Assembly (NCBI GenBank): GCA_023014365.1
Contig: JAEBUN010000065.1
Location: 1-64,000, forward strand
DNA from: Lepiota brunneoincarnata
Taxonomy: Eukaryota; Basidiomycota; Agaricomycetes; Agaricales; Agaricaceae
Length of the DNA stretch: 64,000 bases
Direction: 5' to 3'
Part shown: piece by piece, positions 2,323-62,651 of the stretch
How positions within the stretch are numbered: the first letter of the stretch is position 1
How the letters are laid out: every line of letters begins with the position of its first letter
Program-made: the position numbers and the translations under genes
The notes under the pieces: model-generated
Database searches by the model: none
The model's input: the letters and a program-made list of their open reading frames with translations, nothing else
Told to the model about the DNA's origin: nothing

Positions 2323-2393
2323 TGGCTCTGCCCGGCACCTGGTTGGGTCCGGGCCGGGGCATTGGTTATTCCCCTGCTGCCTCCGGGCGGCGT

Positions 2394-2450
2394 GTAGGGA
2401 TTTGCGTAGGAATTGACCCCTAACCCCCGATAAGGGGGGGGACCTTGTCT
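2394..2450 (+). promoter_or_regulatory. LINE 3'-UTR conserved stem
   Basis: After the ORF comes GTAGGGATTT..GAATTGACCCCTAA followed by a C-run pairing with a G-run. The same block sits in the 3' UTR of family A at 5808-5856, in a weaker second copy at 5728-5775, and reverse-complemented at 7858-7915. Conservation between two families that otherwise differ suggests an RNA element recognised by the element's RT; that role is inferred. Confidence 0.55.
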
Positions 2451-2700
2451 CGGCTTTGTTCCCGCGCCGCACGCTGGGCGGCAGCTGTCTTCCCGCCTCC
2501 ATTCGTTCGGGGCGGCTTCGTCCTGGGCATGGGGAAATACATGCCCGCATCCGCGGTTACGCGTTGTATGTACAGATACCCTGTAGCTTACGGCTCGGGT
2601 TGTACCATAGTTAGTAGCTGCACATGGCCTCCCTACGCGGCCCGCGTTATAAATTGGAGATTTAAAAAAAAAAAAAAAAAAAAAAGACATGCTCATGGAA

Positions 2701-3194
2701 GGTGAGAGCACAGTTGAAATAGAAACCCAAGTACTGCCAAAACAGCTTAGGCCTCAAAGGGGTATCTCCCATGTACGGATGGAAGCCCAAGTCAATAGGC
2801 GGGTTGGCGTCCCTCGGGTTGTGAGAGACGTGAAAGACCTCAGACTTGGTATGCTCAAGTGTGAGGCCGAAGGAGTCAAAGAGCCCATGCACGCAGTGAT
2901 AAGCTGCCTGCAAGGCAGTTACATTGTCCTCCCAAGTTTTGGTCTGGACTATAAGGATCCCATTATTAACATATGAGAGTATGTCAACACTGAGGCCAGG
3001 GGTCCTCTGGTAATAGAGATACACCAGGGGGGCCAAATACAAGGCCAACAAGACTGGGGACAGAGCTGAGCCCTGCCCACGCCCATATCCGCCTGCTTAG
3101 GGTCTGACCGGAAGGAGTTCCACAAGTAAGTGGTAGACCTCCTGACCAAGTAGGAGCCGAAGAATTGCACCAACTCTGGTGCAAAACCCAACCG
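2701..3194 (-). mobile_element. LINE family A, copy A-1, RT part (broken)
   Basis: Right piece of copy A-1. Minus-strand translations give GFAPELVQFFGSYLV, then across a frameshift LYLAPLVYLYYQR, a degenerate catalytic box LSYVNNG (consensus YVNDG) and LTLEHTKSEVFH. It ends abruptly at about 3194, where plus-strand copy A-2 starts head to head with no spacer. Confidence 0.85.
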
Positions 3195-6096
3195 TGCTCA
3201 CCAATACCTGCCTGAAAGCAGGACACTGGCCGGATTATTTCAAGGAGTCTAACTTGGTGATCATACCTAAGCTGGGCAAGCCTTCATACTTTACGCCCAA
3301 GGCCTTTAGGCCAATTGTGCTGCTAAACACACTAGGCAAGCTTGTGGAGAAGATGATCTCCAACTGCCTCCAATTTGACTGTGTCAAGTGGGGGGTGTTT
3401 CATCCCAACCAGGTTGGCGGTATTTGCCAGAAGTCCACTGAGGATGCCAGGTTGATCCTCACCCATCTCGTTCATGTGGGATGGGCCCCGGGGCTATGGA
3501 CAAGTGTTGTTGCTTTCGACATTGCTCAGTTCTTTCCTTCGCTGAACCATGAGATGATTCTAGCAGTGCTTTCACAGTCAGGGTTCACTGCTGGAGTTGG
3601 TGCAATTCTTTGGCTCCTACCTGGTTGGGAGGTCTACCACTTACCTGTGGAATTCCTTCCAGTCAGGACCTCAGGCAGGCAGATGTGGGTGTGGGGCAGG
3701 GCTTGGCTCTGTCTCCTGGTCTTGTCAGTCCTTGTATCTAGCCCTATTGGTGTATTTGTATTACCAAAGGACCTCCGGCCTCGATGTTGACATGCTCTCG
3801 TATGTCAATGATGGGATCCCTTATAGTTCAGACCAAGAATTGAGAGGACAACGTCTCTGCCCTGCAGGCAGGCCTACCTACTGCGTGCATGGGCTCTTCA
3901 ATTCCTTTGGCCTCATGCTTGAGCACACCAAGTCTGAGGTCTTTCACTTCTCTCAAAACCCGAGGGATGCCAACCTGCCCATTTAACTGGACTTCCATCC
4001 ATACACGGGGTATACCCCTTTGAGACTGAAGCCGTTCTGGCAGCACTTGGGTTTCTATTTCGACCATGCTCTTACCTTCCACAAGCATGTGCGTTACTAT
4101 TCTACCAAGGCGTTCTCCACAGTTGGTGCGATGGGGATGCTTGGTAATTCAACCCAGGGGCTACTTCCTGACCAGAAGCACTTCTCTTACTAGTCCTGCA
4201 TGGTTCCTATAGCCACATATGGATTCCGCATGTGGTATTATGAGAGTTTCCATAACAAGGGAATCCTCAAGATGTTCAACTCCATGCAGTGGCGAGCCGC
4301 TAATTGGATCATCGGTACATTCCTGCACATCCCCCCCTGGGGGGGCAGAGGCCCTTGCAGGCCTTCTGCCCTTCTGGTTGCATCTCAAGAAGCTGGCTTC
4401 CCAAATGATATTCCGTGTTGCCATGCTTGCAGCAAATCATCCACTTCAGCCCTTGCTGGGCCACAAGTTCAGGAGGAGCACTCTGGCGCACCTCCGCTCT
4501 ATTTTGTCTCTCACCCTGGGACTTCAGCCCAAGGTGAAGAGTGCCCTCATGGAAGTGCAAGATGTGCTTCTACAGCTTACTGAGCCGTTCAGCCCTGTTT
4601 GCGGACAAGAACAGGCCAGGTCTCCGACTCTTGGACCGCTTTTCAGAGTGGATCAAGTTTATGCTCTACACTGTTGATCCGGAAGGGGGATTCGAAGCAA
4701 CGGCATCTCGACAGTTTGCATGCCTCCATTTGGAGGGTGCAGGACTGACCCAGTCATCTGCTTGCATAGCGGCTAGGTGCACACCGGCTGCTGTGTGGGA
4801 GACTGCAGGCTGTCTCAGGTGGCTTGCGTGTTTGCAGGCAGGCGCTTGGTCAGGCAGGCCAGGCAGGCTGCGAGGAGGGTTCTGCTCACTGATGCGGAGC
4901 TCTACTCTATCTGGTTGGGAGTAGGTATGGTCTTGGATCTTGCTGAAACTGACCACATCTTTATATACACCAGCTCCGTAGGCTCCACCTGCAGACCTGT
5001 TGATCCTTCTGTGCATGCAGGCCAGGCTCACTCTCTGGAGGTGTGCTGATCTCTGGATTGCTGGTTGTCTGCCAAGGCCCAGCAGACTGTCACTTTCTGG
5101 CAGGTGCCCTCAGGCTCTGTTACAGAACTTCACTCCAATGCTGTTGCGATGGCGAAGGAGCTTCACGTCTCACTGGTGTCCACCCAGCGACTACCATCGA
5201 TTCCCTTTGTGCTAAGATCACAAGGGGATGCATCGACAAGTGGGTGAACATGTTTTCGCTTGCCCTTGTATTGAGGCAGGAACTTCCTCCCTCTATTGGA
5301 CTCCTTCAGGAAGCCTCTCCAACCCTCATACCTCTCCGGCGGTACCTGGCTCTGAGAAATCGGTCCCTGAATGTCTGTCACTGGCACAGCGTGGGCAGTC
5401 CACACTATACTTGGTCATGCCCCTATAGGGGAGTACCGCTGCCAGATTCCACCCCCAGGAGGATCACTCCTGTCCTTGTGGGTTGCAGCTTGAAACCCGT
5501 ACTCACATTCTCACCTCCTGTCCTGGAGTACATGTGGTGTGGCGGCTTACCCTGTGACCTCAATGCCCTTCTGGACTTTCTGGAACTGCAATCCTTCCAT
5601 GTTTGCATTCCTATCCCTGGCTCCAAGGGGTGGGATAACTGGGGAGGGCCTTTGGGTTATTCCCCCCTTGCGGGCTTCGGCCTCGAGGAGCTGATGGTTA
5701 TTTGCCCCCTGCCCTTTGGGCAGGGTGTAGTGATTTATGGAGAATTGACTCCTAATGCCCCCAGGGGTGGAGACCTGAAGCTCTTAGAGCCTTAGCCTGC
5801 AAGGTGCAGGGATTTACAGGGAATTAACCCCTAACCCCCTTTGGGGGGGGGACTTGTTGGTCCCTATCCACCCCTTGTCTGTCGCGCCCTAGTTTCCAGT
5901 TGGGGTAGTGAGCTCTTCACCCACAGTGCACTTCTTTATAGAGTGTGGCCTTTCGAGTCAGTGGGACTCTCTTCCCTACCTTTACTGGTAGTTATACCAT
6001 GTATTAGTTGCTTTGTACATAGCTAGTGCACGTGGACTGCGTTTGAGCACCTATGTTATAAATTGTTGATTTTTTTTAAAAAAAAAAAAAAAAAAA
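3195..6096 (+). mobile_element. LINE family A, copy A-2, 5'-truncated pseudocopy with poly(A)
   Basis: Plus-strand family A copy starting in RT at LTNTCLKAGHWPDYFKESN. RT blocks follow (VVAFDIAQFFPSLNHEM, a catalytic box SYVNDG near 3799, HTKSEVFHFS), then the connection region (4200-4470), an RNase H remnant (LLTDAELYSIWLG at 4881-4920, DPSVHAGQAHSLEVC ending at a stop near 5046) and a degenerate zinc-finger end. Frames are broken by frameshifts and stops (for example at 4192). The 3' UTR ends ATAAATTGTTGATTT and a 19-nt poly(A) (6078-6096). CpG is nearly absent. Confidence 0.9.
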
Positions 6097-7620
6097 GACC
6101 AGCAATGCCCCTAACAGTAACTGCCTTGGACACCACCAGCCTGATGGCGAAAAGCTTGGCCTCGGGAGCTGTGACCTTCCTCCCCGGAAGCCGGACCGCA
6201 TGGACGCAGTCTAGCCCCTGGAAAACCTGGGCGGCCACAACTACCTGGTGGACCTGGCAGGGTGGCAGACTTCGCGTCCGTCACCACCACCAGAACCCCC
6301 TGGATCAGTCTGCACCTGGGCGAGAACCCGGTCGAGAGCTGCGATGTGGGCCGTAAGGGCTGTCCTCTGCCCCTCAGTCGTAAGAGTGGAAATGAACCCT
6401 CCCCAGGTACACATCCAAGAGATGGTGCCCTGGCCAAGCCTCCGGTGCAACAGCAGTCGAAGGACCCAGTGAGGGTGGCAAGATGCTGGTTAGCATCGAC
6501 AACAAGCCTCTTCACCTTGATCAACTTGCAGGGAGGGAGCCTGGCTATAGACCAGACATGGGACCAGAGATCTCCACTGTAGCTCCAGCTGAGGAGGACA
6601 CGAATGGGGTGGCTTGGTGCAAGTGTGGTATACTGCAACTTGGCACAATCACGAAGCTTTCAGAAATGAAGATGAATGGGGATCAGGCCTGCAATGGCCC
6701 CAACCCCCCCTATCAGGTGACGCCCTGAAGGCGCTGGTGATCCAAAGTGCAGCCCAACGCTGCATCCGGCGGAGGTGATCCAAAGCGCCCTTACACCTGG
6801 TACCCCAGTAATACCACAAGCAGAAGCCGTACGTGGCAATAGGAAACATGCACGACCAATAAAGAAGGCACTTCTGATCTGGCAGAAGCCCCTGGACGGA
6901 GTTACCAAGCATTCCTATAGCCTTGACCATGGAAATAGCCTTGGTAGAGTAGAACCAAACATGCTCCTTAAACGTGAGGGCATGATTAAAATAGAAACCC
7001 AAATACCTCCAATAGATCTTGGGCTGAAGGGGGGTAGTGCCAGTGAACAGGGGAAACCCCAAGTCCACCGGGGGATTCTTACTGGACCGATCCCGTGAGA
7101 AATGGAAGAGTTCAGACTTGTCGTGCTCCACAACCAGTGCAAATTGAGTGAAGGTGTCATGGACAACCTTGTAAGATCTGCGGAGCAGAACGCAGTTAGC
7201 ATCCAGGTCCCAGGCCTGCGCCACGATGGTGCCATCATTGACATAGGGCAGGAGTGAGAGGCCCAGCTGAGGAAGCCTCCGCTCGATAATGTACATGGTA
7301 GGGAGCCAAGTAGAGGCCGGACAGGACGGATGAGAGAGCAGACCCCTGGCCCACCCCCACCTCCGCCCGGAACAGTTCAGACAGGAAGAAATTCCAGGCA
7401 TAGTTGGTGAACCTCCCTGTGAGATAAGAATCAAAGAACCGGCTCACACAAGGGGAGAATCCCTGCCAAGCCAGAACCGTGAGAAGCATCCCATGGTTCA
7501 GGGATGGGAAGAACTGTGTGATGTCAAAGGCGAGAACACTTGTCTTCAACCCGCGGGCCCACCCGGCACAGACAAGGTGCACTGAGGTAGGCACCAGCAT
7601 CTTTGGTGGACCACTGAATC
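6097..7620 (-). mobile_element. LINE family B, copy B-2, internal fragment
   Basis: Minus-strand family B fragment trapped between the poly(A) ends of A-2 and A-3. Reading leftward: RT palm (SVLAFDITQFFPSLNHGM, VGVGQGSALS), catalytic box LPYVNDG near 7232, RT tail (YWRYLGFYFNHALTFKEH), connection region, and the start of RNase H (PEAKLFAIRL near 6140). Compared with B-1 it has frameshifts and loss of CpG. Both ends are cut by neighbouring insertions, so element termini are absent. Confidence 0.88.
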
Positions 7621-10603: not shown

Positions 10604-11895
10604 TTTCTCTGAGGAGGTGTTCATTGTAGGGCACTCCAATCCTTGGTGGAATGACAAGTGCTCCACTGCCATTCAGGTATACCAGGTGGCTCCCTCAGGG
10701 GACGTGTGGTTCGAATTCCAGGTGTGTCGTTAAGGCCATCAAATGCAAGTTCTTCGATGAGAAGATCAAGGAAATTGCTTCTGTGAACAAGGCACCCCTG
10801 GGGCCTTATGGCCTGGGTTAAGCAGCACAAACTCCCTGCGTGTGATGCGAATTCAGCACAATGGTGTGCCATGTCATGATATGGACTCCCTCTGGGATGC
10901 CCTCCAAGGGACCTACAACTGCGGGCTCTGGCCATGCTGTGGATCCCTCAGTTTTGAATGCTCTTCTCACGCAGGTGGAGAGAGCATGGTACCCCTTCTT
11001 GACCTTAGAGCTCAAGGATGCTTTGCGTTCTTGCACGAAGAGGTCTGCCCCTGGGCCCAACTATATTACTTGGTCATACCTGAAGGACATTGTGGCGGAT
11101 GGAGCATCCTGCCACATGTTTGTTGATCTTGCCAATGCCTGCCTTACAGCAGGGCACTGGCCAGATTATTTCAAGGAGTCTAACTCGGTTGTCATACCTA
11201 AGCTGGGGAATCCCTCTTACTCTACACCCAAGGCCTTTCAGCCGATTGTGTTGTTAAACATGCTGGGTAAGCTTGTGGAGAAAATGATCTCCAACTGCCT
11301 CCAATTTGACTGCATCAAGTGGGGGATGTTTCATCCCAACCAGGTTGGTAGTATTTGTCAGAAGTCCACTGAGGATGCCAGGTTGATCCTCACCCATCTC
11401 GTTCGTGTGGGGTGGGCTCGGGGGCTGTGGATGAGCATTATCGCCTTTGACATTGCTCAGTTCTTCCCTTTGCTGAATCATGAGATGATTCTTGCGGTGC
11501 TATCATGGTTGGGGTTTGCACCAGAGCTGGTGCAGTTCTTTGGCTCCTACCTGGTTGGGAGGTCTACTATGTACTTGTGGAATTCCTTCCGGTCTGACCC
11601 TAGGCAGGCTGATGTGGGCGTAGGGCAGGGCTCTGCTCTGTTCCCAGTCTTGTCAGCCTTGTATCTTGCCCCCTTGGTGTATCTATACTACCAGAGGACC
11701 CCCAGCCTCAAGGTTGACATACTCTTGTATGTCAATGACAGGACCCTTATAGTTCAGACCAAGAATTGGGAGGACAACGTTTCTGCCCTGCAGGCAGCCT
11801 ACTGCTGCATGCATGGGCTCTTTGATTCCTTTGGCCTCACGCTTGAGCACACCAAGTCTGAGGTCTTTTACTTCTCTCTGAAACCTAAGGGATGC
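10604..11895 (+). mobile_element. LINE family A, copy A-4, truncated at both ends
   Basis: Starts at the end of the endonuclease domain (FSEEVFIVGHSNPWWNDKCS), then the linker (KCKFFDEKIKEIASVNKAP, two stops) and an open RT frame 10861-11895: SAPGPNYITWSYLKD, HWPDYFKESNSVVIPK, RPIVLLN-like block, IIAFDIAQFFPLLN, VGVGQGSALFPVLSALYLAPL, LLYVNDRTLIVQTK. It stops at KPKGC where G2 LTR sequence replaces it. This is the only family A copy showing the RT N-terminal half. It meets A-3 head to head at 10603. Confidence 0.9.
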
Positions 11896-13068
11896 GATAA
11901 GCTTAAGTTAATACAAGTAGTATGAGGTAGATAATGAACAGTTTCATCTTTTAGGGTGTTCTGGGGGTGTGTTCTGACAGCGAAATTCAAGAAGATAGTG
12001 TTTTTAGAGGTTAACAAACAGCCATTGAGGTTATCTTAGCTATATGGTGCAACAGTGAAAGGACAATCCCTGTCAATTCAAAGCATGGGGTCTCTAGTCT
12101 CTGGTCTCTGGTCTCTGAACTCTGTTCTCTGTCTCTGTCTCTGGGTTGGTCGATGACCGAAGAAATCACACTTAACGATGCACACTAAATAGTCCTCTGA
12201 AACCATTCTTGATCATGGCTCACAGACTTGCATGTGGAAGTGGGGGTGAGACCTCTCCCTTCTCCACAAACAAGCGCGACTGTATTTATATTGTTTAGAT
12301 ACATATGAGAGATAGTAAATATGAAATAGAAAACAATAAGCTTAATTGTTACAGGTACTGCAGAATATTTTGGAAGGTTTGGCAGCATTTCTACCTTGCC
12401 CTGGGTTATGGGTTTTTCTCTGATTGACAAATGGCAATCCAGCCAGACGTGTTCCGTGCTCATCTGCATTATTTTGTGTCCATATGAGTGCATTAAGCCT
12501 CCAGATCAATTATGATCAGAATGTATGGCATATGGACAATCCCTTGATCTGTTGTAATTAATCTCAGTTAGGCAATATGCCGAGGTGCCGGGACCCACAA
12601 AGCACTTGTTAATTATGAGTCTTTGATATGTCTAGGGTTTTGGGCATCAGGTGTCGCCTCCCGAATGTTGGATGTTCTGTTCCATGGTCTAGTCATCATT
12701 ATTGGGCTTACTATGGGCATAATACACCTGCAACAGCCGCTATGTACATTCTTTAGGTTCCAACAAATCTGAGTTCATCAGAAAACTGCTCATAAGGTTG
12801 CTGGATGCGACCGGAGTATACTTGATAGGCTATGTAAAGTCCGGAATCCCTACAGAGAGCATTCTGATAGCTTGGTTCACTAAGCTTAGTGATCATGAAC
12901 TGGTTTGAACACTTCCAGGGCTCAAATATCCTCGGTTTGGTCGAACTGGCTACTATGGGACATAGTACCAATCCTCTATAGGGTTCTTTAATGATATAGC
13001 CAATGATTCTATGTAGAGAATCATTCTGGAGTACAGAATTCATGTATAGGCATGAAATCAGTATATCA
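11896..13068 (-). repeat. G2-family LTR, truncated (solo)
   Basis: Matches the three other G2 LTRs (32404-34170, 52808-54107, 54519-55806). The coding-strand start TGATATAC is at 13068; the last ~110 bp of the LTR are missing at the LINE junction at 11896. It contains a TCTCTG-rich simple-repeat block (12088-12145) and the perfect 16-bp palindrome TCACTAAGCTTAGTGA at 12877-12892. The other side abuts a gag-like ORF. Confidence 0.85.
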
Positions 13069-13771
13069 CTGCTTGGCTCCAATTGGTCAGTTTTTCTACG
13101 GTCACCATTTCCACATTTCCTGAGATAGCTCCTGCTAAATTTTGAGTGAAGATCTTTTGTCTCGTTTCCCTTGGCTTGTTGCTCAGGATTTCGATTTCTG
13201 TTTCTGTTTGCTTTGCCTTTTTGTTTGGTGGGGGTTTATGGGCTTTCATCACCTCTGATAGTTTAGACCCTGGGTATTTCTGGGTCTTTGAACCTGTTAT
13301 CAGGGTTGTTTTTCTTGGGGTTGGTGTTGTCCCCATTTGAGCCTTTGGCATCTTGCCTTTCCCTACTAGGCTTTTCCTTGTTATTCTGGGTCTGCCTGCC
13401 AGGGGGCCTCCCATTTCCTCTATTGTTATGTTGTCTGGGACATATGGGTCCTTGTCCATTGGCTTTGCAACTGATTTTCTTTTCACCACTTTTCTTATCA
13501 TGTGTTTCAGGGAGGGTGGTTTTGGTGTTTCCTCTTTCCCATTGATGTCCATTCCATTTGCTAGTTGTCCTAGTTCATCTATATCTCCTGTGTCCTCTTT
13601 ATCTGATATTTCTATATCAGCCTCTTTTTCCTTTTCGCTCTTCTCCTCATCTGATGTCTCTTGTTCTGAAGATGAGGATATTGCTAGGTCCTCTTCTTGG
13701 GGGAGGTGTTTCCTTTTCTGAGTGGTGTTGGTTTTTGGGGTAGATATGATAATATAGTGTTTCTGGGGTTT
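13069..13771 (-). pseudogene. Gag-like basic/acidic ORF, truncated by G2 LTR
   Basis: Open minus-strand frame of about 230 codons, with the first ATG at 13552 and open sequence upstream to a TAA near 13770. The N-terminal part is acidic (SSSEQETSDEEKSEKEKEAD); the C-terminal part is lysine/proline rich (MIRKVVKRKSVAKP, PPPNKKAKQ). No zinc knuckle, RT or other known domain is visible. The reading runs into the G2 LTR (..TNWSQ then LTR), so the C-terminus is lost. Composition resembles a retroelement Gag or nucleic-acid-binding protein, but I do not recognise the family. Confidence 0.45.
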
Positions 13772-31406: not shown

Positions 31407-32403
31407 CTAGGCAGCACAAGCCCAGCAACCATCCACGAGTCGAATGATGAGCCCATCCGCCAGGAGGGAACGGGCATAGTCAAGACAAGCCAGGTAGGTG
31501 ACAGGTGGAAGTCTCTGGCCCCAGGTCAAAATGACACTGTCAACCTCCATTGGGGTCAAGGCCAGGGTAGGGGTGGCGCTTCCCATCTGGACTGATGGGA
31601 CTCCAGGGGTAGACATACTGGAGGGGGTAGAGATAGGCATAGGAGAGCCACGTGACAGTTGCCTAAGAAACCGCAGGTGAATGGATAGGAGTGGGGGTAG
31701 ATGCAGCCATGTGTATAGTAGTTGACAGAGTGCCAGCTGGGGTAGAGATCATAGGGGGAGTGGGAGTGACAGAAGAGGCCTGCGAGGAGGACTGTGCACC
31801 TGGGTGCACCCAGTCAGGGACTGGGGTAGCAGACCCAGAGGCAACGGGGTCCGCACAAGCTAGGAGTGGGAGCCTGAGCTGCTACAGGAGCAGGATGGTC
31901 CGGGGGCTGCTAGGGTGGGGCTGGAAACCACCATTGTCTTCTCCTTCTTTGTCTTTGGAAGATGGACACGCTTGCACACAATCTGCTTACCTAACACCAC
32001 AAGGGCATCACCGAGTTGCTGCTCGGTCCCCCTGATAGAGACATGGTGCTTGTTGGCACCATCTGTGGCCACTGAATAGACCTGGAGGTGGGTGCCGCTA
32101 ATATCAGTGACCTGTTTAAGGCTGTGGCTGCCACAACCAATCACGTGCCCACCCATGTTGTCAGCAATAACAGGGGTAGCCTGATAGTGATTGGCCTGGT
32201 CGTCCTGCAGGTAGTGAGCCAAAAGTGGGAGGGCAGTAGAGGTGCCTTTTACCACAGGGTGAGTGGGGCCCGAACAGTTAGGAGTGCATGGGACACCTGT
32301 GGAGATCTGTGGGTAACCCTTCTGGGTAGTAGCTGCTTGGATGACAGCTGGGGAGGGACTGGCGGCAGCCATCGAGGTACAATCCTTGAGGGTGTGCAAG
32401 CGG
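31407..32403 (-). pseudogene. C1 Gag-like ORF, KH-domain part
   Basis: The N-terminal piece of the same ORF is at 34171-34332. This part reads a Ser/Pro-rich linker and then a KH-like RNA-binding fold: GGHVIGCGSHSLKQVTDISG with the G-x-x-G-type loop, a variable loop (VATDGANKHH), and VSIRGTEQQLGDALVVLGKQI closing the fold. A basic tail (KRVHLPKTKKEK) follows, then a stop at 31860. The C-terminal piece after a frame change (31407-31640) ends LDYARSLLADGLIIRLVDGCW. KH domains bind single-stranded RNA or DNA, so a packaging role is plausible; that is inference. Confidence 0.75.
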
Positions 32404-34170
32404 TGAAAAGGTGGAGAAACTTTTGTTGGTTTTAATATAGATAGTGGGCTTGTTTTCACTAAGCTTAGCCGCAATTCGATAAGCTTAAGCTAATACAAGT
32501 GGAATGAGATAGATAATGAACAGTTTCGTCTTTTAGGGTGTTCTGGGGGTGTGTTCTGACAGCAAAATTCAAGAGAGTAGTGTTTTTTTTAGAGGTTAAC
32601 AAACAGCCATTGAAGTTATCTTAGCCGTATGGTGCAACAATGAAAGGACAATCCCTGCCAATTCAGAGCGCTGGTCTCTGGTCTCTGTCTGGTCTCTGAC
32701 TGGTCTCTCTCTGGTCTAGCACTTGGATCTAACTCTAAACTTGGTCTCTGTCTCTGTCTCGGGTTGTCGACCAAGAATCACACTTACGACGCCACAAAAA
32801 GCCCTCTGAAAACGTTCTGATCACAGCTGCAGACTGGTGTGGAAGCGGGGGTGGATCTCTTGCTCTCACAAACAGTGTGACGTATTTTTGTTTGGATACT
32901 ACGAGAGATAGTAAATGAAAGAAAACCAGAAGTAATTGTACAGGCACTTAACATTTGGAAGGTTGACATTGCACCTCACTGGTTATGGGTTTTGTAATCC
33001 ACCCAAACTAGAGCTAACATGGCTTCGCTCTCGATCACGTGTGCTCCACAGACTATGCCTCGACTCGGCCCCGACTGTCGGAAGTCCCGGACGCGAACTT
33101 ACACGTGCCAAGACCACCTACCTTGCTCCTGTCCATTCTCCATTCTCGTCGTAATCAAGTGTTACCAGTCTCATACCCATCGGTCTCCATTATTGAAATA
33201 TTCGTATCCGCTTGACCTAGGGTCTACGCTCGCTCGCAGTAGTCAGTACGAAATATCGTCGAGCTAGTAGAATATACCGTAGCACTTGCTTTACTCTCAG
33301 TTGAAATGAATCGAGCAGCGACAGGCATCCTCCTTCTCCGCCTCGCTCTGTCGGCCCCGACTCTAAACGGACTTGGACAGTAGTGAGGACAGGACATAAG
33401 CTGAGGCGGCAGCACTTCCGCCGAATCTCTCGACCGTCCCTTTACGTTGACGCGTCCGTCCCGGTTACCTTATACAAGATACCACCGACCCTCCCTTGGT
33501 TCGACCGCGACAGGCTTACAGTTTTCCTGTTAAAAAGCCAGACATGTTCCGTGCTCGTCTGCATTATTCTGCGTCCACGTGAGCACGTTAAGAGGTGTTC
33601 GCCGATCAATTATGATCGGAATGTATAGCGGATGGACAATTCCTTGATCCGTTGTAATTAATCTCAGTTAAGCAGTATGCCGAAGTGCCGGGACCCCCAA
33701 AGCACTTGTTAATTAGGAGTCTTTGATATTTCTAGGGTTTTGGGCATTGGGTATTGCCTCCCAAACGTTGGATGTTCCGTTCCGTGGTCCAGTCATCATT
33801 ATTGAACTTGCTATAGATGTAATACGCCTGCGACAGCCGCTAGGTACATTCTTTTATGTTTAAACGCATTCGGGTTCATCAGAAAACTGCTCGTAAGGTC
33901 CCTTGATGCGACCGGGGATATACTTGATAGTCTATGTAGAGCCCTGAATCCCTCCGGAGAGTGTTCTGATAGCTTGGTTCACTAAGCTTAGTGATAATGA
34001 GCTGGTTTGAACACTTCTGAGGCTCGAATATCCTTAGTTCGGTTGAACTGGCTACTACGGGATATAGTACCAATCCTCTATAGAGTTCTTTAATGATATA
34101 GCCAATGATTCTATGTAGAGAATCGTTCCGGAGTACGGAATTCATGTATAGGCGTGAAATCGGCGTATCA
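32404..34170 (-). repeat. G2 LTR inserted in C1 gag, with a ~530-bp insert
   Basis: Starts TGAAAAGGTGGAG and ends GGCGTATCA in plus orientation, matching other G2 LTRs. It is longer (1767 bp) because ~33000-33535 has no counterpart in them. It carries the 16-bp palindrome at 33979-33994 and TCTCTG simple repeats at 32668-32760. No clear 5-bp duplication was found. It retains more CpG than the other LTRs. Confidence 0.85.
33000..33535. other. CpG-containing insert of unknown origin within G2 LTR
   Basis: Absent from the other three G2 LTRs; unusually rich in CpG for this window. No ORF of note, terminal repeat or target duplication was recognised. Confidence 0.5.
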
Positions 34171-34332
34171 GTGGGATGAGAGAGAACCAATCAAGCGGTT
34201 AAGCTCACCAATCCAGGCCAATAGGGCCTGAGTATCCTCACCTGAACGTGAGGGTCCTGCCGAGGCAGGGGCTGTTGTCAGTGGGGCGGGCGCAGTCACT
34301 TTCTGCTTGCCTGAGGACTTTTGGTGGGGCAT
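34171..34332 (-). pseudogene. C1 Gag-like ORF, N-terminal part
   Basis: ATG at 34330-34332 opens MPHQKSSGKQKVTAPAPL, followed by a short predicted helix (TQALLAWIGELNRLIGSL), then meets the G2 LTR. The remainder resumes at 32403. Confidence 0.75.
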
Positions 34333-52807: not shown

Positions 52808-54107
52808 TAATGCGCTGATTTCGCGCATATACATGAATTCCATACTCCGGAACAATTCTCTACATAGAATCATTGGCTATATCATTAAAGAACCCTATAG
52901 AGGATTGGTACTATGTCCCATAGTAGCCAGTTTGACCAAACTGAGGATATTTGAGCCTCAGAAGCGTTCAAACTAGCTCATTATCACTAAGCTTAGTGAA
53001 CCAAGCTATCAGAATGCTCTCTGGAGGGATTCCGGACTCTCCATAGCCTATCAAGTATACTCCGGTCGCATCCAGGGACCTTACAAGCAGTTTTCTGATG
53101 AACTTGGATTTGTTGGAACCTAAAGAATGTACATAGCAGCTGTCACAGGTGTATTACACCCATAGCAAGCCCAATAATGATGACCAGACCACGGAATGGA
53201 ATGTCCAACGTTTGGGAGGCAACACCCAATGCCCAAAACCCTAGACATATCAAAGACTCATAATTAACAAGTGCTTTGTGGGTCCCAGCACCTTGGCATA
53301 TTGCCTAACTGAGATTAATTACAACGGATCAAGGGATTGTCCATACACCATACATTCCGATCATAATTGATCTGGAGGCTTAATGCACTTGTGTGGATGC
53401 AGAATAATGCAGACAAGCACAGAACACATCTGGCTGGATTGCCATTTGTCAATCAGAGAAAAACCCATAATCCAGGGCAAGGTAGAAATGCTGCCAAACC
53501 TTCCAAAATATTCTGCAGTACCTGTAACAATTAAGCTTATTGTTTTCTATTTCATATTTACTATCTCTCATATGTATCTAAACAATATAAATATGGTTGT
53601 GCTTGTTTGTGGAGAAGGGAGAGGTCTCACCCCCACTTCCACATGCAAGTCTGCAAGCCATGATCAAGAATGGTTTCAGAGGACTATTTAGTGTGCATTG
53701 TTAAGTATGATTTCTTCAGTCATCAACCAACCCAGAGACAGAGACAGAGAACAGAGAACAGAGTTTAGAGTTCCAGAGTGCTAGAGACAGAGACAGAAAC
53801 AGAGAACAGAGTTCAAAGACCAGAGACCAGAGACTAGAGACCCTGCACTTTGAATTGACAGGGATTGTCCTTTCACTGTTGCACCGTATGGCTAAGATAA
53901 CTTCAACGGCTGTTCATTAACCTCTAAAAACACTATCCTCTTGAATTTCACTGTCAGAACACACCCCCAGAACACCCTAAAAGACAAAACTGTTCATTAT
54001 CTATCTCATACTACTTGTATTAACTTAAGCTTATCGAATTTTGACTAAGCTTAGTGAGAACAAGCCCTTTATCTATATTAAAACCCATGAACGTTTCCAC
54101 CTTTTCA
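52808..54107 (+). repeat. G2 LTR, 5' LTR of a plus-strand copy
   Basis: 1300 bp; the first TG is mutated to TA, it ends CACCTTTTCA, and is followed by TC and the primer-binding site. It has the 16-bp palindrome at 52984-52999 and an AGACAGAG-rich block at 53735-53835. Confidence 0.88.
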
Positions 54108-54109
54108 TC

Positions 54110-54128
54110 TGGAGCCCACCGTGAGGGG
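54110..54128 (+). promoter_or_regulatory. G2 primer-binding site candidate
   Basis: TGGAGCCCACCGTGAGGGG two bases inside the LTR, identical to the G1 site. Confidence 0.7.
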
Positions 54129-54518
54129 GGTTTTCAGTTGAATTTCACGAGACAAACACCAAAAGACTTGGACACTGGCCCACCTTTCACCTGCAAAGCA
54201 GAAAAAGGTTCAAGCAAAGACTGTAAAGTCACCCAAAACATCCTCCAAGAGCAGTCTCAGGAAGGTCGACCCCACAAAACAGAGAACTACTCGGAATTCT
54301 AATTGTCCAGAAGGTTCTGAAGGCCTCATCACCACTAGTACCTCTTGAAAGTGAAAAGATCCTACTAGTTCTATAACTGCAAGCACAGCAAGTGGTTTAG
54401 CAGTTGCAGTATCAAGAGAAGTTGCACTGCCAATCTCTACTGCTCCCAGAATTACTATAAGGCTTCCAGCCTCAGCTTGCAACATAGCACATATTCTGCA
54501 CACCGAAAGCCAGGATGG
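54129..54518 (+). pseudogene. G2 leader/gag 5' fragment
   Basis: About 390 bp between the primer-binding site and the inverted LTR of the next copy. Frames are broken; no domain is recognisable. By position it should be the start of gag. Confidence 0.45.
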
Positions 54519-55806
54519 TGAAAAGGTGGAAATGTTTGTGGATTTTTAATATGGATAGAGGGCTTGTTTTCACTAAGCTTAGCCGAAATTTGATAAGCTT
54601 AAGCTAATACAAGTGATATGAGATAGATAATGAACAGTTTTGTCTTTTAGGGTGTTCTGGGGGTGCGTTCTGACAGTGAAATTCAAGAGAGTAGTTTTTT
54701 AGAGGTTAACAAACAGCCGTTGAAGTTATCTTAGCCATACAGTGCAACAATAAAAGGACAATCCCTGTCAATTCAAAGCGCAGGGTCTCTAGTCTCTGGT
54801 CTCTGGTCTTTGAACTCTGTTCTCTGTCTCTGTCTCTGTCTCTAGCACTCTGGAACTCTAAACTCTGGACTCTGTTCTCTGTCTCTGTCTCTGGGTTGGT
54901 TGATGACCAAAGAAATCACACTTAATGATGCACACTAAATAGTCCTTTGAAACCATTCTTGATCATGGCTTGCAGACTTGCGTGTGGAAGTGGAGGTGAG
55001 ACCTCTCTCCTCTCCACAAACAAGTGTGACCATATTTATATTGTTTAGATACATATGAGAGATAGTAAATATGAAATAGAAAACAATAAGCTTAATTGTT
55101 ACAGGTACTGCAGAATATTTTGGAAGGTTTGGCAGCATTTCTACCTTGCCCTGGATTATGGGTTTTTCTCTGATTGACAAATGGCAATCCAGCCAGATGT
55201 GTTCTGTGCTTGTCTGCATTATTCTGCATCCACACAAGTGCATTAAGCCTCCAGATCAATTATGATCGGAATGTATGGTGTATGGACAATCCCTTGATCC
55301 GTTGTAATTAATCTCAGTTAGGCAATATGCCAAGGTGCTGGGACCCACAAAGCACTTGTTAATTATGAGTCTTTGATATGTCTAGGGTTTTGGGCATTGG
55401 GTACGTTGGATATTCCATTCCATGGTCTGGTCATCATTATTGGGCTTGCTATGGGCGTAATACACCTGTGACAGCTGCTATGTACATTCTTTAGGTTCCA
55501 ACAAATCCGAGTTCATCAGAAAACTGCTTGTAAGGTCCCTGGATGCGACCGGAGTATACTTGATAGGCTATGGAGAGTCTGGAATCCCTCCAGAGAGCAT
55601 TCTGATAGCTTGGTTCACTAAGCTTAGTGATAATGAGCTGGTTTGAACACTTCCGAGGCTTGAATATCCTCAGTTTGGTCAAACTGGCTACTATGGGACA
55701 TAGTACCAATCCTCTATAGGGTTCTTTAATGATATAGCCAATGATTCTATGTAGAGAATCATTCTGGAGTACAGAATTCATGTATAGGTGTGAAATTGGT
55801 GTATCA
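54519..55806 (-). repeat. G2 3' LTR
   Basis: 1288 bp, TGAAAAGGTGGAA...GGTGTATCA in plus orientation. Contains TAAGCTTA four times, one inside TCACTAAGCTTAGTGA (55615-55630). Confidence 0.92.
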
Positions 55807-56114
55807 TCTCCCCCTAACCAATTGCTGACTGTCCTCAGTCATTATCTCCTTCAAATTTGCAGTATCTGAGTCTCTCTGATGTGCTCTATGTTCTAGAACA
55901 TTCACTAGCTTTGAGAGTAGCATACTCTTGCTAAGCTTATTCCAAAATGATGTCATGTCACCAAGTTTAACTGTATAGATCAAGTTCTTGTTGCTATAGC
56001 CTAAATTTTTATCTCATTATTGGGTCTTTTAAAAGTCCCAAGGTCTCGTTTCCTCTCTTTCATTCTCCCTCTCACTTCTCACTTGTCTATTTTCATCTTG
56101 ACTTTCAGTCTTCT

Positions 56115-58143
56115 ATGCCCACCCACAGCAACAATGGACAAAAACCTGTGCAGCAACAAGAGAGCTCGTCATGATGAAGATTCAGATTCTTCTGCTAGTA
56201 AGCAATGTTCATTTTACTGTTGTCCTTGTCTTGCTAACACTGCCATCAGACTACACTGAGCCAAGGAGTGCTCTTATGGCTCCAGGAAATACATCTTCTC
56301 CTTCAATCACACAACATACGTCACATTTTTCCCCCGTTCTCATTGTCATCACTCATGTTTTCTCTGCTTTTAGGTCTCACTATTTGCCTACCAGCGCATC
56401 GCAACCTCCTGCCTCAATGGGAACCACCAGCACCACGTACTAGGAGGGCTAGAGGAGGGTGAGGAGCTTGAGGAGCTTGCGGAAATTGTCAGGTGGGTGT
56501 GGCAAGGACCCCTCCTCCACCATACTCTCCACCCCGCAAACCGACTCCTCCGCTGGCCTCTCCCTTGGCTGTTCCAGTGCCAAGATGTGTGATTTCCATC
56601 ATGTTGTTGTGCAATCCAACCGACGAGCGCTCTGCTGGATTTTCCGCAGAACCCTTGTCAGGTATCCCTGTTGGCAGGCCCTCTGGTGGATTATCTACAG
56701 AGGCTTCATCCAATTCAATGTCACTGCCCCCTCTCACCATCTCTTTGTGCACCCTAGATGGGGAAGACTTGCTGGTGCTCCCTCCCCTGGGTATTGCATC
56801 AGGTTCAGAGGTGCCGGGCCCTTCAACAAACTGGCCTTCTTCCCCCATACTCTCTTCTGCTACTTCAATGCATAAGCTTAGTCATTTTCATGATATATTT
56901 GTTCTTTCCGCTGATTTCTGCTTTAGCACGTATACCAGCTGCCCTTAAAGGCAAACAGAAGGCGAAATCATAGATGCTGCCCCCTCTCCCCTTATTCCTG
57001 ACGGGTTCTAACTTGTCATCATGTTCTCCAGTCCCTGAGGTCTCTCAAGCCAACCTCTTTAAAATCTTTAGCTGGTCCTCTTCTCTAGATGGGCAACATG
57101 TGCTGGCTTCGCCTAGGTGCCCAACACTATCACCACCCCACTTGGCTGGCACTCCAGTCAAGTCTTCCGCAAGCGCTGTGGAGATTTCACCTTCTCCAGA
57201 TTTGGAGCTCCTTCTAAGAACCGACTTTTGTTTTTCAAGACATGTTCTTAGCTTCTCTGACCCCCATCCTTTCTCATTTGCCTAGCCTGGTGGTTCCAGA
57301 GATCCCTCAAGAGTCTCCTCATGCTGGCCCATCACGTCAAAAACACATCCTTTCATCCAAGAAGAGTTCCAACACATGGACGAAGAAATACGTTCCCCAA
57401 GTTTGTGTTCGATGCTCTGAGGCCACCATTATTTGGGACTATGGATACCGCCACCCAGTCCCACTCTTTTGTGAGGACTTTCCTAGGCTGCTGGCAGCTA
57501 GCCAGCTTTTGGTATGTTCTCCAAGTTTTTTCGTGTTTCCTTACTGAAGGTTTTGACATCTACCCCAGTATGTGCCACCTTGGTCTCAGTGTCCTTCCTG
57601 CACTGCTTGTAAGTTGGAGTGTGAGCCTCTGGGCAAGGGTAAGAAGTGTCGCAGCTGCAACCTCTATAATTACCCCTGCACCTTCACAGACCATCTGCAA
57701 GTCTTGGCTGGCATTGCGAATGCCCTAGTCACATCTTCACTGACCAGTGAATACCATAAGTTTCTCTGTTCACTATTTTTCTCTTTTCTTATTCTCTTTA
57801 TTTTCTAGATCTGGCTGCTTTCACGTGTGTTGTGTCCTCCAGCTTGGTCAGCCTGGAAGCAAACCACGTCACTTACGAGGCTTCAGCGTTTCACCACTGT
57901 CGGGTGGTTTATCAGTTCATCCAGGAAATGCAAGCTACCAGGACAGCCTTGGAAGGTAACAATGTGGCATTCGTCAAGATGGGGATGGCCAACTCCATTG
58001 AAGACGTCAAGGCGTTCTTTGAGTTTGCCAACAACTTTCTGGGAGTCCCAACATATGAAGAATTTGAGGAGCTCAAATCACTTCCCTTCCTCACTTTCCC
58101 AATGACTCAGCATCTAGAGTCTATCTTGGAGGACTTAAACTAG
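56115..58143 (+). CDS. G2 antisense accessory gene 1: Zn2Cys6-like protein, multi-exon
   Basis: Best-supported exons: ~57286-57511, 57569-57746, 57809-58143, joined in frame through introns 57512-57568 and 57747-57808 (GT..AG). Upstream exons are less certain: a Ser/Pro-rich exon at ~56493-56870, and a start near 56115 or 56134 (MDKNLCSNKRARHDEDSDSS). The zinc module at 57590-57679 reads CPSCTACKLEC-X8-CRSCNLYNYPC (CX2CX6C twice), in the canonical Zn2Cys6 order. It is followed by a helical C-terminus (QFIQEMQATRTALEG, SIEDVKAFFEFANNFLG) ending LESILEDLN. A CT-rich leader precedes the start. Placement between integrase and 3' LTR equals that of the G4 gene. A transcription-factor-like role is inferred. 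Confidence 0.65.
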
Positions 58144-58334
58144 CTGCTCCCCTTTTATACCTTTATCTCTTGAATGTAACATCCTATTTTGTCCTGTAGA
58201 TACATTCACAATTAAAGATTCTTGTCTCTTGGTATCTTTCTGAGTTAAGCTTGAGGCCTTTCTGAAGACCCTGAGCTAAGCTAAGGCTTCCAGCCGCTTA
58301 TACGCTCATCAGATATTTCTCTGATACTTCTGCG

Positions 58335-60140
58335 ATGCCTATTGACCCCTCAACGTGCCGTGATCCACAACACGTAGCAACCCAGCTCATCCACTCTGGT
58401 TTCCTTACAAGCCCAAACCAGCCTGTCCATGATGTTTGGAAAAGCTCTACACGAAAAAGCTTGCATCAAACTGTCAAACTGAAGCACCCCTTGGGACCCA
58501 TCTCCCCCCTAGCCAAATTGAAATCAGTGCCCTCACCATTCCATCAGAATCCCTGTGCACACTGATAACCATGAGACCCTGGCAACATGTTACCTAATAA
58601 GGCAACTGTGGTTCAGCAAGTCTGTCAAAGGCTGGCTACTCAAGATTACAGGTTTCCTGGGCCTCTCAGGTCATAAGCTTAGGGTGGAGGGTGCTTTTCA
58701 TCCACTCATTATGATTTGTCATCACTGCCAACAGCCTTTTCTTATAAAGCGAGGGAGCAATGTCTCATTCTAGCAGCCACCCTTTGCAAGAAAATGGCTT
58801 CTTCTATCCCCCATCGCCAGTTCAAGCTCAACAATCTCATCAGCAATGCCAAAGGTTGTCTTCAGTGCCTGCAAAACAGCCAAGTCACTTGTCCCCTCAT
58901 CGAGAAGGCTCTCCTTGTGTTTGACACCCCTGGGGTATGTCTACTCTTTCCATGCTTCTCTCGCCGTTTCTAAATCATTTCTAGTCTGCTTATATTGAAG
59001 CGTTATCAGAGGATAATGAGGCTATCAAGCTTCATGTCAACCAGGACTACATCTTCCATATCTGCAAGCTCTACAAAATTTACCAAAACAACTACCATTT
59101 GTCTTATGAGATGCCCACAATCTATAAGGCACTCTCTGAATGCTGTAGCTGCATTAATTGCATTTGTTCTGAAGAATCCCACAAATCCAGGACCGAAGAG
59201 GCTCAGAACCCATTGTCCACAACTGGCTCTACTTCCTCCAACGTTGCCAAAGGCTCTGCTATCCCCAAACACGTAAGCTTAGCGTTCTTTTGGCTCCAAT
59301 TGTCTCCTCATGTATAAGCTTAGCCTCGCAAAGGTCACAAGGCCCCTGTCTCTGCTGCTGTTGTGGTAGACACTGATACCAAGCTTGCTGAGAGTATGAA
59401 CAGTGCCTCCAACTCCCGAGCAACTGGTGCTGACACAGTAATCTAGCTGCTTCTCAACCCATAGCATTGGCTGAGATCATCACTTGCCTTCAGGACATGA
59501 TGGTTGATGAGGAGGTTTCTCAAGCTATTGTCAAAGAGGTTTGTGTAGTTTCACCTTATTGCAAGCGTCGTTTGTCTACCTCCAACATGGTGCACCAGCT
59601 CCACTCCCCCTAACCACTGATTCTGACTTCCTCCCTCTTTAGGAGACTGTCAAAAAGTCCTCATCATCTAAAGGCACCATCCGTCTTCTTCCCTATTGTC
59701 AAGTTCCCAATATGAACACTAAACACTGCTGTTATGCCCAGGCTGAACAGGTTCTAGCCAAAGCCAATGCCAATACTGCCAAGCGTGCCTGTACCAAGTC
59801 TGTTTCTGATGAGCATGCCTTTGCAGGCTTATCCAGTGGGCAATTTCTCACTTCTATTTGCTAAGCTTAATGGTTCTGACACTTATCCTGGGCAGCTCAT
59901 TTGCTCCAGGAACTCCAAAACCTCCTGTCTCACTCTCACAACAAGTACAAGTCCAAATCTCATGGTGATGATGCTTGGTCAGTCAAATGTGACCTCAATT
60001 TGCTCAGCCAGGACTTCATCGAGGCTATTCCCTCACTTGAAGCCAACTTAAAGAGGTTCCAATTCCTCATTCAAGAGTGCATCCATCTCAAAAGCCTTTT
60101 GCACAACCTCTCCGACTTGGACAAGTCCTCCCCCGCTTAA
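58335..60140 (+). CDS. G2 antisense accessory gene 2 or continuation, unrecognised
   Basis: Plus-strand exons with ~50-nt introns. Clear examples are an intron 59273-59323 that starts GTAAGCTTAG and ends AAGCTTAG, and one near 58936-58980. Recognisable stretches: CRDPQHVATQLIHSGFLTSPN (58359), ICHHCQQPFLIK (58711), GCLQCLQNSQVTC (58857, CX2CX7C) and a helical end LKRFQFLIQECIHLKSLLHNL stopping at 60138. The stop overlaps a TAAGCTTA palindrome and is 76 bp from the integrase stop (convergent). Exon structure incomplete; some frames look broken. I do not recognise the family. Confidence 0.4.
59273..59323 (+). other. 51-nt intron bounded by TAAGCTTAG at both ends
   Basis: Donor GTAAGCTTAG and acceptor region TATAAGCTTAG; length matches other introns here. 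Confidence 0.5.
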
Positions 60141-60216
60141 GCTTAATGCTTTTACAGTCCCCAGGATAGTTTTCCTTTGATAAGTAGATAGTTCTGTCCA
60201 CAATATCAGGTTTTTT

Positions 60217-61998
60217 CTATCCCTCCAACTCTTCTGGCTCCCATCTGTCACTAGGCTCATCCTCAGTAGTCTCCTCCAGGGTCTTCAGTCCCTCTGGTGA
60301 CAGATCTAACAACTCTTGTAACTCTGGCAGCAATGGCATATGTTTTCTGGCTAAGTAGGGAATTACTCTGAACACCACCACTTTATTCTGCCATACAGAA
60401 CCATCCAACTCTGCCAGGATATAAGATCCTCCCTTTGATCTAGATATGACCACCATGGGTCCTAGATACCTGGGTTTCATCTTCCTGTCTGCTGAGCTCT
60501 CTATAGCTGTATTTCTCACTAATACTAAATCTCCCAGGCCAAAGCAATAATCTTTTATCTTATGTGCTGCTTGTCGTTCCATCTCCCAAGCCTTGCTAAG
60601 CTTAGTGTCTGAAACACGCTGACGCACCTCCTCAACATGCCGAATATGCTTTGCCAAAGCCTGAGCTCGGTATCCTATCAACTTGGCCGTGGTCAAGTAC
60701 TTATTTGGTAGCTGTACTAGCCAAGTGGCCTCTTGGACATCCAGAGGTAGTGTCAGGTGCACTCTGGTTACCAAAAAGTACAGGGAACACCCTGTTCCTT
60801 TTCTAATGGTTATCCGATCTGCCCACATAATGTGCAGTAGGTGCCAATACCACTTTTTGACATCTCCATCTGTAGCTTTGTACAACATTTGCCACACATC
60901 CCAGTGGGGTCTCTCAATAATCCCATTCGCTTTGGAATTGTAAGGAGATATCATTACTCCCTTTATCCCATATTTTTCTTCCAGCCATTGAACAGCTTTC
61001 TTAAATGGAGAACCATTGTCTGTGACAATCCTCACTATACAGCCCCATCAGCAAATGATATCTTCAAATAACCACTGCGCAATCAAACTAGCATTCTCTT
61101 TTCTCAAAGCTTTTGCCTCCATCCAGGATGACAGTCCACATCTTCCATGCACAATGTAACTACACCCATTAGAACTTGGTATCATATGTAGCATGTCCAC
61201 ATGTAGCACTTGGAATATCAATGGCATAGGCGTTACTATTGGCAGCATCTCAATGATCACCTTTTGCCATTGCTGGCATAGATGGCACAATTGCACATAC
61301 CAAGCTATGTCTCCTTCAACTTCTGGCCACCAGAACCTCTGCGTTATAAGCTTAGTGGTTGTGTATATTCCTCTGTGTCCTAGGAAGTTGTGGCTGGCTT
61401 GCAACATATATATACACTGCTCCTTATCCACTACTAGCTGATGTTGACCACTAGGACTTGTCCTATACAGTCTCCCCTCTTCATCCAAGAAGAAATGCTC
61501 CACCATATACTTAAGCTTACACAGATCCAGCTCATCTAAGCCTTCAGCTGCACTACTGCCTCCTGTTTTCAGGAATTCCCTGACTTTGGGTATTCTTCCA
61601 TCTTGTATTTGTGCTGTATCTGTCCTATGCAATTCATCATACACTTCCTCTATCTTGGTCAACTTTTCCTCTTTGAAATCTGGCACTAGCCTGACATCCG
61701 TCATTAAGCTTAGTACTTGTTGGTGGTTTTCTGGGCACACTGGGTCTTCGATAACCCTAAGCTTAGCCTGTTGTTCATCCAAGTACTCTTCCCAAGCTTG
61801 ATCCAGCTCATACTCAAAATCATACACATCACATGCCAGACCCTGGTTGAAGCCAGAGTGACTGTCAATCTCATCACAGAAGGCTTCCAAGGGTAACGGA
61901 TCTGCAGCCCCCAGATCTTCTTTGATCAACTCAAACTCCTCTCCCTTGTCCTCAGATCCGTCATCAAAACAACAGGCTGTCTCATCACTGGGATAGTA
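60217..61998 (-). pseudogene. G2 integrase and upstream pol segment (one stop)
   Basis: Frame with one TGA (61048-61050, probably from CGA). Upstream acidic linker (YELDQAWEEYLDEQQAKL), zinc HHCC (HNFLGHRGIYTT...CHLCQQ), core with D in HVDMLHMIPSS, D in [11 protein letters not shown] in [11 protein letters not shown], then a C-terminal [21 protein letters not shown] segment shared with G1. So G1 and G2 belong to one gypsy lineage, matching their common primer-binding site. No chromodomain. RT lies beyond the G4-B insertion. Confidence 0.9.
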
Positions 61999-62651
61999 TG
62001 TTTGAGCCAGTGTGGGTCAGGACCAAAGCGGAGGGTCAGGGTGGTATCCTTGATATAAGGTAACCAGGGGACGGGGTGAAGTCAGTACGTAGACTTCGGA
62101 ACCGAGGCGGAGTACATTGGGCAGGGGGTTGGACTTGCGGCCTCAGCTTATGTGCTGTGCCCTCCTACTGTCCTAGTCTGTATTTCAGGAAGTCGGAGCC
62201 GAAGCAGAGCGAGGCAGAAGAGAGGAGAGGATATGGAACAGGGAGCTGGTCCGCTGCTCGATTTGATTATCAGACTGAGGAGTACAAGTCAAGTACCTAC
62301 GGTATATATACTACTGGCCTTACAAACTATGACTCATACTGACTATGTGTGGAGCAAAGTGGAGACCGATCTAGTTACAAACGGATTACAAACGGATTAC
62401 AAATGGAATGGAAATGGGTACAGGTATGGAGACTGATAACGTATCTTGACTACAGATGGGAAATGGAGACGGGGGTATGAGACACCAAGGGTCAGGTAAC
62501 CATGGCATGTGTGGAGGTGGTTGCGTGATCGGGGCAGTGGGTTGCGGTCGGAGCAGGTCAGGGCTGAGTCGGAGGGCAGAGGGTTGTTGTGTGGAACACA
62601 CGTGGAGTCGAGAAGCCAAAGTTTAGACTCTGAGTTGGCATGGATATGACA
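61999..62651 (-). repeat. G4-B 3' LTR
   Basis: 653 bp, TGTTTGAGCCAG...GGATATGACA, homologous to both G4-A LTRs. Confidence 0.93.

Follow-up and report, generated by a model that had tools for sequence, protein, structure and literature searches.

The 8-bp palindrome TAAGCTTA, dispersed through copies of the retroelement G2 in the fungus Lepiota brunneoincarnata, is well supported by copy comparisons as a DNA word under selection, and its occurrences are most likely sites to which a dimeric DNA-binding protein would bind. G2 is a Ty3/gypsy long terminal repeat (LTR) retrotransposon with two antisense genes, A and B, between pol and the 3' LTR. It was encountered in a 64-kb stretch of DNA (contig JAEBUN010000065.1, positions 1 to 64,000), hereafter the window. 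All comparisons were made inside one genome, and the elements covered were G2, one sister family, and the rest of the window.

Abundance of the palindrome

A first-pass annotation of the window listed 16 copies of TAAGCTTA between positions 54519 and 61998. An exact recount placed all 16 correctly to the base; the runner-up among 8-bp palindromes in this interval has only 2 copies. The whole window contains 26 copies, against a mean of 0.77 and a maximum of 3 in shuffled sequence. All 26 lie within the 11,531 window bases having G2 homology and none outside it (0/26), as the annotation had claimed. A 16-bp palindrome reported in the LTRs is likewise perfect at all four positions given for it (12877, 33979, 52984, and 55615), with a single near-match at 54042.

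Genome-wide, TAAGCTTA occurs 5370 times in 55.6 Mb, against 419, 586, and 1189 occurrences of the same-composition palindromes TTAGCTAA, ATAGCTAT, and AATGCATT. The reversed word, found 842 times, is a poor control because it contains CpG and repeat DNA here is CpG-poor. When the sites of contig C1 are taken in coordinate order, 27 of the first 30 are in G2 sequence. The whole 8-bp word appears to matter, since 23 of the 29 AAGCTT hexamers in one G2 copy are full TAAGCTTA sites and single-mismatch versions stay within the range of shuffled sequence (7 and 3 against 2.5 and 2.6 expected; shuffle maxima of 9 and 8).

The excess extends to other copies. Exactly 10 sites in approximately 4.3 kb were counted at 27 of 30 integrase loci, the remaining three having 6, 8, and 9; these loci were the top 30 among 96, a choice that biases sites and controls alike. 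A near full-length copy at C1:456397-469819 contains 26 sites over 13.4 kb, 4 of them in the 5' LTR, 3 in the 3' LTR, and the others spread over the leader, gag-pol, and antisense sequence; its LTR match spans approximately 1.3 kb at the 5' end and 955 bp at the 3' end. Another near full-length copy, which falls in two genome pieces (L041 and L042), has 18 and 9 sites in them, including 4 in the second LTR. Both copies carry approximately 23 distinct sites. The annotation had named two outcomes that would count against its proposal, and neither was seen: the G2 copies examined (the 30 integrase loci) share the excess, and the rest of the window and a single stretch of the sister family lack it.

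The assignment of G2 is based on Pfam matches to gag-asp_proteas (34.9 bits), RT_RNaseH (46.8 bits), and Integrase_H2C2 (62.7 bits), all above cutoff; the scanned piece gave no Pfam row for the reverse transcriptase (RT) core. RNase H lies in piece L039 and integrase downstream in the adjoining L040, the order in which RT/RNase H precedes integrase. The protease, RNase H, and integrase domains of the C1:456397-469819 copy also exceed the Pfam cutoffs, and the paired LTRs of one G2 copy are 99.9% identical over 955 bp. Among 96 integrase matches scored from 1222 candidates in the genome, 90 are 86-100% identical and 6 are 70-71% identical.

Conservation of the sites between copies

Summed over 12 pairwise comparisons of G2 copies, 96 of 105 TAAGCTTA sites were intact, against 4205 of 8503 control 8-mers; other CpG-free 8-mers of G2 are thus not equally conserved. 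The controls lacked CG, TG, and CA and lay outside CpG context, so that escape from CpG mutation is controlled as a cause of site retention; their intact fraction ranged from 0.33 to 0.75 by pair. Using L040 as the reference, 309 of 315 sites were retained, against 15109 of 19638 controls. Overlapping alignments and those shorter than 300 bases were excluded from the first set, and those shorter than 800 bases from the second. The comparisons are non-independent, as copies are shared between pairs.

Conservation is confined to the word itself. Over the 12 comparisons, identity was 0.983 in the core (826/840). At non-CpG flanking positions it was 0.929 at base 1, 0.861 at bases 2-3, 0.91-0.92 at bases 4-10, and approximately 0.90 beyond. 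Some sites are private to, or lost from, individual copies (e.g., L040 3526, L041 4897, and L074 3748, in piece coordinates). Sites seem to turn over while the total stays up, as though their number rather than their place were kept.

Coding constraint, spacing, and flanking bases

Protein sequence is not the cause of the excess, a point on which the annotation was right: the longest open stretches at the 30 integrase loci hold 155 sites, against a summed mean of 1.19 in synonymous-codon shuffles. The shuffles, performed on these stretches, never gave more than 2 sites per locus. Coding constraint was rejected because these shuffles abolish the excess. The annotation erred in placing the sites in all reading frames of integrase. 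Two frames are used: in the 940-aa open stretch, five of six sites are read as x-K-L and one as L-S-L, and the third frame, which would place TAA in frame, is unused.

Regular spacing was not found (coefficient of variation of 0.85 against 0.94, with 0.296 of random sets at least as even). In 20 distinct contexts, the base at -1 was C in 12, T in 5, A in 2, and G in 1 on the sense strand, and A in 8, C in 7, T in 4, and G in 1 on the antisense strand. Thus, G is scarce at -1 on both strands.

The sister family

A sister Ty3/gypsy family has approximately 71% integrase identity to G2 and at least 10 copies at 95-100% identity, with integrase matches on C1, C21, C36, C17, C74, C9, C26, C25, C5, and C34. 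One long stretch of this family, L073, contains a single TAAGCTTA in 6368 bases, an adjoining G2 LTR being excluded. The pol open frame of L073 runs for at least 1207 aa in one frame, and approximately 4.6 kb (1939-6500) was confirmed as sister sequence by this frame and by its 96% agreement with another copy. The genome listing gives the same lone site between C1:684574 and 697691; G2 sequence aligned to it has no site there. A second sister piece of 1 kb has 0 sites. At positions aligned to the pol sites of G2 the sister letters differ, so G2 would have gained these sites by small changes, or the sister would have lost them. AATGCATT was considered as the sister's own motif and rejected: L073 contains 3 copies, with none more in C1:690611-713995, for a word as common genome-wide as noted above.

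The antisense genes were sought in the same family. Genes A and B were not found in L073 or L076 (tblastn, best E value of 3.5). When match lists were compared, with 150 of the 228 candidates for gene B scored, no match to this gene stood beside any of the 10 sister copies where G2 has it, on the opposite strand a few kb past integrase. Two same-strand gene B matches lie 5 and 8 kb from sister copies (C5 and C9). Motif and antisense genes go together in this one contrast, drawn from one long sister stretch.

The antisense genes

In all four other copies compared, gene B has three recognizable exons, which encode a proline-rich part, a Zn2Cys6-like cluster, and a C-terminal part. Zn2Cys6 proteins follow the pattern C-x2-C-x6-C-x5-16-C-x2-C-x6-8-C. 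The spacing in gene B fits this pattern, and its six cluster cysteines are invariant in 4/4 aligned copies. A lysine of gene B that is also invariant in the alignment, K14, corresponds to the DNA-contacting lysine of Gal4. In comparison with L040, the uncorrected ratio of nonsynonymous to synonymous change (pN/pS) is 0.10-0.17 in the C-terminal exon and 0.14-0.29 in the exon of the cluster, rising to 0.28-0.34 in the proline-rich one; CpG decay puts noise into these values. Short introns gave ratios of 0.37-2.08 on 34-55 bases, too few for a control. Judged by these alignments, gene B is a real gene under apparent protein-level selection (pN/pS 0.10-0.34). Gene A had no Pfam match in the scanned piece.

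The gene B region diverges more than pol: 76-84% nucleotide identity between L040 3419-5864 and window positions 55940-58359, against approximately 91% for pol. This greater divergence hints at mosaic G2 subfamilies. Some sites (L040 2483, 2525, and 4928; window 59274 and 59315) fall at inferred GTAAG donors or acceptors of antisense-gene introns.

CpG decay

L039/L040, a young copy, has a CpG observed/expected ratio of 0.91-0.95, and L041/L042 one of 0.65-0.72. In old sequence the ratio is lower, at 0.25-0.28 for the window copies and 0.08-0.18 for L074 and L075. The gradation from 0.95 to 0.08 over G2 copies resembles a clock of methylation or of decay like that caused by repeat-induced point mutation (RIP). 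In the window copy, 307 of 409 CpG of L040 have become TpG or CpA. We infer that the CpG were lost through cytosine methylation or a RIP-like process.

G2 sequences of the window

The principal window copy is the 3' part of a G2 element on the minus strand, comprising an incomplete pol, the opposite-strand genes, and the 3' LTR. The LTR (54519..55806, minus strand), which matches LTRs in L039-L042 by blastn, contains four sites (54574, 54594, 55087, and 55619), the last within the 16-bp palindrome at 55615-55630. A site between this LTR and gene B (55932..55939) is retained in 3/4 aligned copies, being missing in L040; one within gene B (56873..56880) is retained in 4/4 and in L040 overlaps an inferred GTAAG intron donor.

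On the plus strand, part of the proline-rich exon 2 of gene B spans 56923..57505, where tblastn of the L040 exon matches two pieces in differing frames. The Zn2Cys6-like exon, C-x2-C-x6-C-x8-C-x2-C-x6-C, lies at 57572..57775 (from the alignment, and Pfam on the L040 copy). The C-terminal exon, whose pN/pS is given above, lies at 57808..58143, with a stop at its end. A site between genes B and A (58674..58681) is retained in 3/4 aligned copies. Gene A, also on the plus strand, is represented by exon 1 at 58794..58934 (tblastn, 68%; pN/pS 0.18-0.51) and part of exon 2 at 59000..59269 (tblastn, 84%). Two sites at 59274 and 59315 (59274..59322, plus strand) lie where a short intron of gene A is inferred to have its donor and acceptor ends, and are present in 32/32 aligned copies. 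Retention was also 32/32 for the site farther downstream in the gene A region (59862..59869) and for that between gene A and the end of pol (60138..60145). The 3' part of pol (60220..62001, minus strand) includes an integrase match at 60220-61539 and sequence upstream, with homology stopping at approximately 62001 and Integrase_H2C2 detected on the L040 copy; its sites are at 60597, 61347, 61512, 61705, and 61758.

The 3' LTR abuts, at 54519, a second G2 copy in the opposite orientation. The start of this copy (52810..54518, plus strand) comprises an LTR to approximately 54107 and a leader, with sites at 52988, 53532, 54026, and 54046. Elsewhere in the window are G2 LTR pieces at 32401..34173 (minus strand; sites 32460, 32480, and 33983) and a G2 LTR at 11892..13081 (minus strand; sites 11898, 12337, and 12881). 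Tandem LTRs occur in L041 at 12-2577 (C1:733 kb). Together with the opposed abutting copies at 54519, they suggest that G2 copies have been repeated targets of insertion or have recombined with one another. Upstream of a G2 copy, L039 1412-3416 reads in translation alone as a Ty1/copia-like fragment and has a lone TAAGCTTA at 1705.

Interpretation of the sites

The annotation had proposed a distributed recognition site for the element's own Zn2Cys6-like protein or for a host silencing factor. The recognition site is strongly supported: conservation is limited to the 8-bp core, coding offers no explanation, and RNA pairing is unremarkable. The element's own Zn2Cys6-like protein is a plausible candidate for the binder, and a host silencing factor is less likely because selection seems to keep the sites, not remove them. 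The two-fold symmetry of TAAGCTTA suggests that the binder would be homodimeric. Quite possibly, though we put this forward tentatively, it is the product of antisense gene B, acting as an activator or anti-silencer on sites kept by selection.

Under this proposal, TAAGCTTA would be a cis-acting DNA site that G2 has accumulated and that selection holds. The gene B product, combining the Zn2Cys6-like cluster and the C-terminal exon and possibly joined by gene A, would be trans-acting and reach all G2 copies; since the LTRs, gag-pol, and the antisense genes all contain sites, it would do so over the full length of the element. Occupancy of the element body might counter the CpG-linked silencing that erodes old copies; alternatively, the binder might activate the LTR and antisense promoters. 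An element under silencing pressure would gain from a protein that recognizes all its copies.

Several observations weigh against a gene B binder with this role. Classical Zn2Cys6 proteins recognize CGG triplets, and TAAGCTTA contains none. The L040 copy of gene B scores below the Pfam Zn_clus gathering cutoff (17.2 against 21 bits), which is why we label it only Zn2Cys6-like, and gene B has no PDB sequence match. Structural models were poor, with predicted local distance difference test (pLDDT) scores of 57 for the cluster exon and 45 for the C-terminal exon; the latter model, of poor quality, is mostly helical. The flanks are not fully symmetric, with A at -1 in 2/20 sense contexts against 8/20 antisense contexts. 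Eight extra sites, outside the 105 counted, occur in the partner copy alone. The joint absence of motif and genes comes from one sister stretch only and may be chance. Finally, no local protection was seen: pooled CpG decay was 0.65 within 60 bp of sites against 0.54-0.70 further away. In L042 alone, 6/31 CpG had decayed within 60 bp of sites against 101/271 beyond. Because the pooled decay near sites is not lower, we keep the anti-silencing step as a conditional part of the proposal.

An unlikely alternative is that G2 exploits a host DNA-binding protein, such as an activator, a boundary factor, or a nucleosome-displacing factor, and that the antisense genes serve elsewhere. It would produce the same site conservation and would suit a word without CGG. 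However, the sister family, in the same host and exposed to the same factor, lacks the excess; no window site lies outside G2, and the 3/30 outside it on C1 are at roughly background level. We consider it less probable again that the binder is the element's own protein serving another purpose, whether to repress copy number, to compact cDNA or handle it in the nucleus, or to direct integration toward G2 copies already present. The same motif and gene evidence applies, and the abutting copies at 54519 and the tandem LTRs of L041 would fit, although clustering of copies has many causes.

A role in RNA, with the palindrome serving dimerization or packaging of genomic RNA, is improbable. The internal sites would all be in the inferred full-length transcript, and there is a slight strand asymmetry at -1/+1. 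Yet predicted pairing is no different at the sites (0.45 unpaired at 23 sites against 0.44 at 300 random positions, p = 0.58), and the flanks differ between sites. An absence of function, with the excess due to mutational bias, gene conversion tracts, or assembly artefact, is scarcely credible: TAAGCTTA lacks CpG and is spared the commonest mutation here, but controls without CG, TG, and CA survive at about half the rate, gene conversion was rejected because identity drops to flank level right outside the 8-bp core, unlike in conversion tracts, and the genome has thousands of sites, yet the sister stretch is nearly free of them.

Comparison with known systems

To our knowledge, the only known cases in which an element-encoded protein reads a dispersed motif array come from plant DNA transposons. 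In maize Spm/En, the element-encoded protein TnpA binds repeated short subterminal motifs; those motifs lie near the element ends, whereas G2 sites run through coding regions. VANDAL elements are Mutator-like DNA transposons. The open-licence literature, covered by titles and abstract openings and leaving subscription papers mostly outside, yielded no such motif array in a fungal LTR element, and the patterns used retrieved no relatives in IMG/VR.

Plant LTR elements carry antisense genes at the same position and orientation, for which a regulatory role has been suggested, their function being unknown (PMC7264820). The main text of that report does not contain "zinc," "DNA-binding," or "transcription factor," and its available passages describe no dispersed motif. 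Fungal DNA transposons carry TET/JBP dioxygenases thought, in the accessible part of the report, to counter DNA methylation (PMC12730594). These resemble the role proposed for G2 in being fungal and directed against methylation; they differ in using an enzyme rather than a DNA-site system.

The closest likeness is to VANDAL21 of Arabidopsis, in which VANC21 binds the 9-bp motif YAGTATTAY and brings about loss of methylation over the element, according to the passages available (PMC5735166). As far as those passages go, the motifs lie outside coding DNA and built up through tandem repetition (PMC5735166), and anti-silencing by VANC is family-specific, relatives having other motifs (PMC5735166, PMC10398659). 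Judging from the same passages, the likeness consists of a family dotted with a short motif, an element-encoded accessory protein, family specificity, and a methylated host. As in VANC systems, the whole element is enriched for the motif and a related family lacks it (sister: 1 in 6.4 kb, 0 in 1 kb). In contrast to the non-coding, often tandem VANDAL motifs described there, the G2 motif is an exact, dispersed palindrome with random-like spacing that also occurs in pol codons.

G2 is a fungal LTR element and VANDAL a plant DNA transposon, and the likeness is one of outline, drawn from G2 sequence alone. It is possible, though less likely than not, that a fungal LTR retrotransposon has its own anti-silencing system, independent of plant VANC, formed by an antisense Zn2Cys6-like protein and a palindrome in LTRs, introns, and pol codons. 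If true, this would be a convergent case in a fungal retroelement, with sites even in coding sequence; it would show that a mobile element can make its entire body a platform on which a protein docks for self-recognition, and what antisense genes do in gypsy elements would become directly testable. Indeed, an 8-bp site and two candidate binders suit a simple binding test.

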